7,016 nt of DNA, taken from contig JALGZO010000490.1 in assembly GCA_025774865.1 (NCBI GenBank), positions 1-7,016 of the forward strand. Direction: 5' to 3'. This document shows positions 479-3,316 of the stretch, in pieces. The notes under the pieces are model-generated. The model did not search any database and was not told where the DNA came from. It saw only the letters and a program-made list of their open reading frames with translations. Both the position numbers and the translations under genes were made by a program. Every line of letters starts with the position of its first letter. The stretch's first letter is position 1. The DNA is from a bacterium (GTDB lineage: Bacteria > ARS69).

Positions 479-3316
479 CTAGCCCTCGTGGTCGATCCGC
501 TCCCAGCCATCCGGGCCCCGGCGAATCTCGCTGGTGGGCCAGAAGCGCGGATCCGGCTTGAGGGTGACGACCGAGGCCTTGCCGTCGAGATCGAGCGTCT
601 TGATGCGAACCGCGCGGCCGTTCGGTCGATTCGAGGTGGCGGCGAGGAAGGCGTCGAGGTCCTGGATCGGCACGCCGTCGATCTCGACGATGCGGTGGGT
701 CGCGCGCAGGCCCGAGCGGTTCGCCGGCGAGCCGTACCAGAACCAGGAGACGTAGAGACCGATCGGCTCGACGCCCCGCTGGTCCGATACGGCGGGATGG
801 GGCGCCTGGAGAAGCGCCCCCTCCCACAGGAGGAAGCGGTCCGTTCCGCGCCCGCTCTGGGCCGTCGTGCCGACGTCGAGCGTGAGCTCCTCGCCGTTGC
901 GCAGCACCGTCAGGCTCACTCGCTCGGCCTGGGACGCGCGCTCCACCACGGCGAAGGACTCGGCCGGGCGCCCGTTGATCGAGAGGAGCAGATCCCCTTC
1001 GCGGAGGGTCTCGGCCGCGGGAGTCCCGGCGGTTCGCCGCACGACGGTCAATACGCGCCGCCGGCTCTCCTTTCGGCTCTCGATGCGCCGGGCGGCCTCC
1101 TCGCCCAGGCCGCGGTTCCGGGCGTCGGCGAGATTGATCGGCCGCAGCTCGACGCCGAGGCTCCGCCACTCGCGGGAGCGATCCGAGGTGGCGATGTCGA
1201 GCATGTCGACCACGGCGCGCGCCGGAATGCCGGCGAATGTCGACGTCACCCCCCCGTCGTCATCGACCGAGAAGGCCGCCCACAACGCGTACACGCGGCC
1301 CTTCTTGTCCGAGATCACCCCGCCGAGCGTGGCGGCCGAATCCGCCAGCCCGATCAGCTCGATGTTGGTTTCGCGAAAGCGCGGCGGATCGCTGAGCGAG
1401 ATGCGCGGCGCCTCCAGCCGAGAGACGCGAGTCTTTCGCGAGATCAGCCGCTGCAGACTGCTGAGGCCCACCAGCCAGATCTCCTCGCCCAACTCCAGGG
1501 CTTCCGGCCGAAACGTCACACTCCGCACCGGCGTACCGCCGAGCAACGCGGGGTCGTACCGCAACAACGCGACATTGTGAGCCGGATGCACGTAGACGAC
1601 CTCGCCGAAGACCTGGACCGACTCGGCGAACGTGATCTTCACGTCGCCGAGCGCGATGGGAACGGTTTCGCGGTCGACGACCACGAAGCCGCGCTCGGCG
1701 TCTACCACGAGGCCGGTTCCCCGGAAGCGATCCGCGTGAACGCCGTCGATGCCAAAGGGGATGTCGACGTCCACCATCGCGATCGACGGAGCCAGATCGC
1801 GCGCCGGTCGCGTGCCCTCGGCGGGGAAGCTCGTGGTCGCGATCTCGGGGCGCGGCGGCGGAGGTGGCGGCGGTGAGGCCTCGCAGGGCCACTCACCGGT
1901 GGCGTCGTCGCGCCTGCAACGCTTCATCTCGAACCAGAGCCGGTCGACGCTGACGACCGCGACCTCCTCCGTACGGGGCGAGCTCAGGTGGAAGTAGCGC
2001 ACCGGAACCTGCTCGCCGTTGGCGAAAGAGGCCATGCGAACCTCGAACTCGTCGAGCGTCTTCACCCTCTCACCTTCGACCGCGGTGATGACCACGCCGT
2101 GGCTCACGTCGGCGCGCGAGAACATGTACCCCGAGGAAGCGAGGTAGACCCCGCCGACCGGAACGCCGTAGTTGCGGGCCTGTTGATAGGAGAGATCGTG
2201 GGCGACGGCACCGCCCAGCTCGAGGTATTCGGAGGGCGTGATCGCGTGGAGGTCCTGTGCGGAGACGATGATCGAGATCGGTCGGCCGCCACGCTCGACC
2301 TCGATGGGGATCTCCTTGCCGACGTTGTCGTCCAGCAGCGATCCCAGCGGACCGAACTTCGTGACCAGCCTGCCGCCCACGCGCACCAGCACGTCGCCCA
2401 CTTCGAGCTTGTCGTCGGCGGGCCCGCCAGGCACGATTTCCTCCACCACGAGCATGCCGGTGCCGCCGAGATCGCTCCTCCGCACCTCCGCCTCGGTCTC
2501 GGAGCGCAGCCCGAGCCGCCGGACTTCGTCGTAGGGGCGGTAGGCGAAGACGGCCTGCAGCGTTCCCCGCGTCACGGGCTCTCCGCGGCGGATGAGGTCG
2601 AGGGCGCGAACGACGAACTCGAGGGGCAGGTAGAAGCTCGACGAGGCGCTCCGCCTCCCCCCGGCGTTCAGCGCGACCACGTGGCCGTGAACGTCGACCA
2701 CGGGCGACCCCGATGACCCGCCGGACGTGCTCGACGCCGCCTGGTAGTAGAAGGTGTTGAAGTCGTTGTAGCGGAGGTGTCCGTACCTGGGCGCTTCCCG
2801 ATCGAGGCGCGCCAGGGTTCCCGCCAGGATCGACAGCTTCTCGCCGGCGTCGTTCCCCACCACGCGGATCTCGGTGCCGACCCGCGCGTGCTCGGGGACG
2901 AGGCTCAGCTGGCCGGGCGTCATGAATTCGACCTCGGTCGGGTCGTAGCGGACGATCCCGAAGTCGTGGACGGGGTCGCGATAGACGACTTCGACGGGTA
3001 CCTCTTCATGGTCGAGGAATACGGCCTCGATCGTCGCCGGCCCCGGGTTCACGACGTGGCGGTTGGTGACGATGAGGCCGCGCTCCGCGTCGACCACGAA
3101 TCCCGTGGCGAGCTCGTCGGCCTGCATCTCCGTGTCGAAGGAACGGGGCACACTCACCCGCAAGACGACGACCGCGGGGACCACGCGATCCAGGGTCGCC
3201 TGCCAGCGCGGCGTTGAGACGACGTCCCGCGCCGCGGCGGGTGCCGGCGCAGCGAGGCCGGCCGTGACGGCACAGAAGAGAAGCAGTCGCAGCGGCCTAC
3301 GGGGCAACGCCGCCAT
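479..3316 (-). CDS. Exported tandem HtrA-like protein, Nma111/DEG7 type: active protease, 2 PDZ, degenerate protease, 2 PDZ
   Basis: A 945-residue protein. Residues 1-29 form a signal peptide (Arg-rich start, hydrophobic core, Ala-rich end, likely cut near AAA-R30), so it should act in the periplasm. Domain 1 (about 40-245) is a trypsin-like HtrA protease with His87 in TNRHVV, Asp118 in HDFGIV and Ser204 in GSSGSP. PDZ-like regions follow at about 255-350 and 360-460. A linker with seven consecutive prolines (482-488) leads to a second protease-like domain (about 510-710), where the triad positions are Glu550, Asn581 and Gly666, so it should be inactive. Two more PDZ-like regions lie at about 715-815 and 828-920. 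The order and length match yeast Nma111 and plant DEG7 (about 1,000 residues); bacterial DegP is about half this size. The ATG overlaps the ribE end by 20 nt. GGGGAG is only 2 nt from the ATG, so TTG at 3307 (11-nt spacing) is an alternative start. Substrates are unknown. Confidence 0.9.
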   Translation of the reverse strand: MAALPRRPLRLLLFCAVTAGLAAPAPAAARDVVSTPRWQATLDRVVPAVVVLRVSVPRSFDTEMQADELATGFVVDAERGLIVTNRHVVNPGPATIEAVFLDHEEVPVEVVYRDPVHDFGIVRYDPTEVEFMTPGQLSLVPEHARVGTEIRVVGNDAGEKLSILAGTLARLDREAPRYGHLRYNDFNTFYYQAASSTSGGSSGSPVVDVHGHVVALNAGGRRSASSSFYLPLEFVVRALDLIRRGEPVTRGTLQAVFAYRPYDEVRRLGLRSETEAEVRRSDLGGTGMLVVEEIVPGGPADDKLEVGDVLVRVGGRLVTKFGPLGSLLDDNVGKEIPIEVERGGRPISIIVSAQDLHAITPSEYLELGGAVAHDLSYQQARNYGVPVGGVYLASSGYMFSRADVSHGVVITAVEGERVKTLDEFEVRMASFANGEQVPVRYFHLSSPRTEEVAVVSVDRLWFEMKRCRRDDATGEWPCEASPPPPPPPRPEIATTSFPAEGTRPARDLAPSIAMVDVDIPFGIDGVHADRFRGTGLVVDAERGFVVVDRETVPIALGDVKITFAESVQVFGEVVYVHPAHNVALLRYDPALLGGTPVRSVTFRPEALELGEEIWLVGLSSLQRLISRKTRVSRLEAPRISLSDPPRFRETNIELIGLADSAATLGGVISDKKGRVYALWAAFSVDDDGGVTSTFAGIPARAVVDMLDIATSDRSREWRSLGVELRPINLADARNRGLGEEAARRIESRKESRRRVLTVVRRTAGTPAAETLREGDLLLSINGRPAESFAVVERASQAERVSLTVLRNGEELTLDVGTTAQSGRGTDRFLLWEGALLQAPHPAVSDQRGVEPIGLYVSWFWYGSPANRSGLRATHRIVEIDGVPIQDLDAFLAATSNRPNGRAVRIKTLDLDGKASVVTLKPDPRFWPTSEIRRGPDGWERIDHEG
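1853..1873 (-). repeat. Seven-codon proline run encoding the linker between the two HtrA halves
   Basis: Seven consecutive CCN codons (five CCG, one CCA, one CCT) encode Pro482 to Pro488 of the HtrA-like protein. The mixed codons suggest selection for a stiff proline linker rather than a recent slippage product. It marks the boundary between the catalytic half and the degenerate half. Confidence 0.85.

Follow-up and report, generated by a model that had tools for sequence, protein, structure and literature searches.

A bacterial, apparently exported tandem HtrA protein with the domain architecture of Nma111 and DEG7

Introduction

Does a bacterium encode an HtrA protein in which the whole protease-PDZ-PDZ unit occurs twice, and how does such a protein relate to the eukaryotic proteins of the same layout? 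The question is raised by one gene in the window, the 7,016-nucleotide stretch of bacterial DNA analyzed here (assembly GCA_025774865.1, contig JALGZO010000490.1). The tandem layout is that of yeast Nma111/Ynm3, which is nuclear and has no signal peptide. In plants, DEG7 has the order PD-PDZ-PDZ-inactive PD-PDZ-PDZ and trimerizes via its degenerate domain (PMC3473262; PMC4754418). For prokaryotic serine proteases, a survey from 2008 recorded the trypsin family with PDZ domains only as PD-PDZ and PD-PDZ-PDZ (PMC2605481). A 2019 survey assigned PDZ_1 to fungi and archaea (PMC6411480). We found neither a description of a bacterial tandem HtrA nor an experiment on such a protein in the literature searched, a search that left most subscription papers outside its reach.

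Results

One gene encodes two protease-PDZ-PDZ units

The gene and its features were placed as follows, with domain boundaries expressed as residues of the encoded protein.

479..3316, minus strand: tandem HtrA gene, 945 codons in an uninterrupted frame (stop counted in the coordinates)
3230..3316, minus strand: predicted signal peptide, residues 1-29 (MAALPRRPLRLLLFCAVTAGLAAPAPAAA), with a basic n-region, hydrophobic core and AxA-like site
2582..3205, minus strand: first protease domain, residues 38-245, triad H87, D118 and S202 in GSSGSP (Pfam, alignment, model, fold search)
2261..2566, minus strand: PDZ domain 1, residues 251-352 (Pfam PDZ_6 at 290-342 and PDZ at 266-321; model)
1949..2251, minus strand: PDZ domain 2 of the Pfam PDZ_1 type, residues 356-456 (PF12812, 83.5 bits, best stretch 358-426)
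1877..1945, minus strand: mid-linker, residues 458-480, with conserved C467 and C478 (alignment of homologues)
1181..1810, minus strand: second protease domain, degenerate, residues 503-712 (alignment, Pfam scan of the half, models, fold search)
851..1171, minus strand: PDZ domain 3, residues 716-822 (PDZ_2 at 752-815; models)
551..841, minus strand: PDZ domain 4, residues 826-922 (PDZ_6 at residues 363-407 of the isolated second half; model)

The minus-strand location and the catalytically dead second protease are both points absent from the first-pass annotation.

The domain order is thus signal peptide, protease, PDZ, PDZ, protease, PDZ, PDZ. A Pfam scan of the full protein identified Trypsin_2 twice, with PDZ-type domains behind each copy. 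When the first half was scanned alone, Trypsin_2 and PDZ_1 scored 97 and 72 bits, respectively, both far above threshold; the second half alone gave a pair of PDZ domains, and its Trypsin_2 match, which spans the full profile, reached 25.1 bits, just below the cut-off of 27.6 bits. Family profiles of the N and C halves aligned over 425 columns (E 2.2e-41, 23% identity), which indicates that the whole protease-PDZ-PDZ unit was duplicated.

AlphaFold2 modeled the whole protein from 45 sequences with a mean pLDDT of 89 (below 50 for residues 1-34), and the second half alone with a pLDDT of 92. In fold searches, the first half matched DegP (3otp_D; Z 25.2, rmsd 7.7, 368 residues), while the second half matched Helicobacter pylori HtrA (Z 23.8, rmsd 14.3, 351 residues) and, at an rmsd of 2.5-2.7, the single protease domains 3mh5_A and 6z0e_B. 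We take the large rmsd against H. pylori HtrA to reflect a different domain arrangement. The solved plant proteins Deg2 and Deg9 have the same PD-PDZ-PDZ unit, and their chains align with either half over 372-395 residues, but each contains a single unit where the tandem HtrA has two. No Nma111 or DEG7 chain was present among the PDB matches listed.

The first-pass annotation had read the 945-residue chain as protease-PDZ-PDZ twice and looked to structure prediction for two protease folds and four PDZ folds. The duplicated layout is borne out by Pfam, the half-half alignment, the models and the fold searches, and six folds, two trypsin-like and four PDZ, are present in the AlphaFold2 secondary-structure order. 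A second half unlike a protease, which it had named as a reason to abandon the idea, is contradicted by the pLDDT 92 model and its HtrA and protease fold matches.

Relatives occur in several bacterial lineages, with conserved gene order in one of them

A pattern search of GTDB genomes returned 493 stretches encoding relatives. The best 80 of these are near full length and 47-69% identical to the window protein, so the architecture is not a chance product. They come from Myxococcota, Gammaproteobacteria and 'Deltaproteobacteria' MAGs, mainly the first two. One copy (L076), from a record titled Actinobacteria (Centralia_MAG_342), groups with the gammaproteobacterial ones, possibly owing to misbinning or mislabelling, and in L041, L056 and others from GC-rich genomes the open frames far exceed 945 codons. 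A scan of viral contigs returned no relative, and a search of plasmids and phages no match.

Myxococcal-type relatives share the gene order aminotransferase, homoserine dehydrogenase, threonine synthase, riboflavin synthase and tandem HtrA, and Pfam confirmed the window neighbours as the genes of this order. The tandem HtrA gene starts about 20 bases before the riboflavin synthase gene ends, and this overlap (3297-3316) suggests that the two lie in one transcription unit. At the contig end, a truncated fragment encodes a glutathione S-transferase N-terminal domain with a CPYC motif (PF13417; 2-226, minus strand). Neighbours of the gammaproteobacterial copies, named by eye, are presumably glycine-cleavage genes and a sugar kinase. 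As a clue to function, the neighbourhood yielded no partner: the myxococcal synteny consists of housekeeping genes, and none was found among the gammaproteobacterial neighbours.

The window is contig C494 of its assigned genome (G000), which comprises 785 contigs with 8.3% contamination. Another contig of this genome, C239, carries a further gene for each of homoserine dehydrogenase and threonine synthase, apparently within a thrA-asd-thrB-thrC cluster, its thrA being 58% identical to that of a same-family genome. The window threonine synthase is about 80% identical to those of L005-L008 and at most 31% identical to any in four same-family genomes, and the tandem HtrA was absent from the four same-family genomes searched. 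Tetranucleotide correlation with the window was 0.93 for C239 and 0.86 for L005, so composition is not decisive for provenance. Given the synteny, the roughly 80% identical neighbours, the second thr cluster on C239 and the missing tandem HtrA in same-family genomes, the window contig was probably misbinned from a myxococcal-type genome. The protein analysis is independent of contig provenance.

This distribution bears on the direction of descent. If bacteria had acquired a eukaryotic gene horizontally, to which a signal peptide and the cysteine pair of the linker were added afterwards, one could account for a searched literature that has the tandem layout from eukaryotes only and for a patchy bacterial distribution: in the phylum to which the closest relative's genome belongs, 52 of 188 genomes sampled have a strong match. 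However, the genes span at least two phyla and have diverged deeply (the best 80 of 493 are 47-69% identical to the window protein), and the alaC-hom-thrC-ribE-tandem HtrA order is kept in the myxococcal group. Multi-phylum spread, divergence and synteny together point to long vertical descent in bacteria, and we regard acquisition from a eukaryote as unlikely. Descent in the other direction is a tentative proposal to which we give somewhat less than even odds: the unit may first have been duplicated and fused, and its second active site lost, in bacteria, with Nma111 and DEG7 descending from a secreted bacterial quality-control protease, possibly of the myxococcal type, that later reached the nucleus and plastid and lost its signal peptide and cysteine pair.

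The tandem protein has the layout of Nma111 and DEG7 rather than that of DegP-type proteins

In a tree of protease domains, the N domains, the C domains and ordinary HtrAs formed three separate groups, and in a tree of whole halves the N-half and C-half groups each received 100% SH-aLRT support. Since the N halves all fall into one clade and the C halves into a second, duplication and decay appear to have occurred once; these trees give good support to a single duplication before the sampled bacterial lineages diverged, and do so without the approximate eukaryotic sequences introduced below. Halves grouping with different single HtrAs, the other result that the first-pass annotation considered fatal, appeared in neither tree.

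Several features place the protein with the Nma111/DEG7 class: a chain of about 1000 aa in which one protease-PDZ-PDZ unit follows another, a PDZ_1 domain, and GXSXS rather than GXSXG around the catalytic serine. PDZ_1 (PF12812) was found in all 45 homologues scanned, with the window protein at 83.5 bits against a cut-off of 28; no match exceeded the cut-off in 14 control genomes or in a further 20 genomes. The serine motif is GSSGS in the first domain, and the Ser at 204 is present in 79 of 80 proteins (best 80 of 493 loci). A GXSXS motif has been reported for A. niger Nma111 (PMC7804941). Among 24 other HtrA-type frames sampled, 13 had GNSGGP and none GSSGSP.

Ordinary DegP, DegQ, MucD and HtrA proteins match each half in PD-PDZ(-PDZ) fold and are exported to the envelope, as the tandem HtrA appears to be, with the same presumed quality-control role, but carry one unit per chain rather than two. 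The DegP/DegQ Do family is defined by a single protease domain with one or two PDZ domains behind it, in contrast to the two units found here, and the tandem HtrA scored 142 bits against the NCBIfam Do family (TIGR02037; curated cut-off 416.2). Two ordinary DegP/DegQ genes might nevertheless have fused independently of Nma111 and DEG7, with a layout that is only convergent, as HtrA units are common building blocks and the single domains match DegP/HtrA structures well. Such an origin is hard to reconcile with three separate groups of protease domains, with a dead second domain shared by Myxococcota and Gammaproteobacteria, with the low Do-family score, and with a serine motif and PDZ_1 domain unlike those of DegP-type proteins, and we consider it very unlikely.

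For direct comparison, approximate sequences of Nma111 (997 aa) and DEG7 (1097 aa) were used that were written out rather than retrieved from a database; results obtained with them serve as leads only. As such leads, the approximate Nma111 was 36% identical to the tandem HtrA over 918 columns, and the approximate DEG7 up to 49% over 863 columns and 52.6% over 481 first-half residues. For contrast, the best ordinary HtrA reached 28% over 300 residues and 23% over 311. The window protein differs from the family consensus at 55 columns compared; there, the approximate Nma111, composed before the sequence of any relative was known, had the consensus residue 24 times, the window residue three times and neither 28 times, which argues that it was not copied from the window protein, although single letters are unproven. 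The approximate DEG7 was composed after the family consensus was known, and the only outside check on it is its length of 1097, as published. In the protease-domain tree, the approximate eukaryotic domains fell among their N and C counterparts, apart from DegP-type domains, and the approximate DEG7 halves did so again in the whole-half tree. Trees constrained to keep the bacterial sequences together, on one side or on the other, were not rejected (AU p 0.52 and 0.54, with the approximate eukaryotic sequences), and thus favour no one position of the eukaryotic branch. A single duplication common to bacteria and eukaryotes should be treated as a lead only.

The first active site is intact and the second is lost

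Residues H87, D118 and S202 of the first protease domain are invariant in 80 of 80 aligned proteins (the best 80 of 493 loci). In the second domain of the same best 80 of 493, the His position is occupied by Asn, Asp or Glu in every protein (E550 in the window protein), the Asp position by Asn in 76, Asp in three and Ser in one (N581 in the window protein), and the Ser loop (about 660-666) is lost in all 80. An intact His-Asp-Ser first protease followed by a degenerate second one, as in the Nma111/DEG7 class, is therefore found in 80/80. Alignment and models together show the second domain to be a fixed, predicted pseudoprotease across the family, with the fold kept and the catalytic residues lost. 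That it still cleaves via a non-canonical residue set is barely conceivable, even with a well-kept fold and invariant D548, R549 and H580 near the old site, given a His position that is never His and a missing Ser loop in all 80 proteins (best 80 of 493 loci).

Predicted export signals are frequent and a linker cysteine pair is conserved

Signal-like N-termini were detected in 58 of 77 proteins, including the window protein, using a crude home-made screen. The other 19 of 77 failed this crude screen, and we think that doubtful start codons account for many of these failures. From these N-termini, we infer that the tandem HtrA is exported and located in the envelope.

The positions of C467 and C478 in the mid-linker are Cys/Cys in 79 of 80 proteins and Ser/Ser in one, a Nannocystis protein (L067), among the best 80 of 493 loci, and in 31 of 45 sequences the pair represents the sole cysteines of the aligned stretch. 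Either both cysteines are present or both are missing, as would fit a probable disulfide in an oxidising compartment.

Discussion

Our results support the view, based on sequence comparison, that the tandem HtrA is a bacterial, apparently secreted counterpart with the Nma111/DEG7 architecture. The first-pass annotation had proposed an exported bacterial counterpart of these proteins, and that much is upheld by the domain layout, by a second protease that is dead, by the GXSXS motif and PDZ_1, and by the separate clades of the halves. It had also suggested a bacterial source or a parallel branch of the family, between which the trees with approximate eukaryotic sequences show no preference. Nma111 shares with the tandem HtrA the layout, the GXSXS motif (of the A. 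niger homologue, PMC7804941) and the PDZ_1 domain reported from fungi (PMC6411480), but is nuclear and has no signal peptide, where the tandem HtrA has a predicted one, and its approximate sequence lacks the linker cysteine pair. DEG7 (Deg/HtrA clade III) has the same published domain order and degenerate second protease; it is found in the chloroplast stroma and at the thylakoid surface, and its approximate sequence has a longer inter-half linker without the cysteine pair. Apparent export and the conserved linker cysteine pair would thus be what is new relative to the eukaryotic forms.

We propose that the protein is an exported envelope HtrA with a fused, duplicated unit, in which the N half performs catalysis, the pseudoprotease acts as a platform, the PDZ domains capture clients and a disulfide spans the linker; we assign this joint reading a probability of roughly 0.7. 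The sequence and models show that duplication and fusion of the whole protease-PDZ-PDZ unit made the protein. The first protease would be the sole catalytic domain, acting through the conserved His87-Asp118-Ser202 triad, and the second most likely serves as an oligomerisation platform for a trimer, by analogy with plant DEG7. As suggested by HtrA biology, the four PDZ domains most likely bind C-termini or hydrophobic segments that misfolded envelope proteins expose, and either deliver them to the active site or control access to it, which would combine protease and chaperone-type quality control. PMC4877387 cites a chaperone activity of Ynm3/Nma111. In the oxidising periplasm, a C467-C478 disulfide would probably stiffen the joint between the halves.

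In the literature searched, the tandem HtrA layout is a plant and fungal feature. A widespread bacterial counterpart would allow the role of the pseudoprotease half to be studied in a simpler setting. It also means that a proper phylogeny can address where two eukaryotic proteases came from, one linked to apoptosis in yeast and one to photosystem repair.
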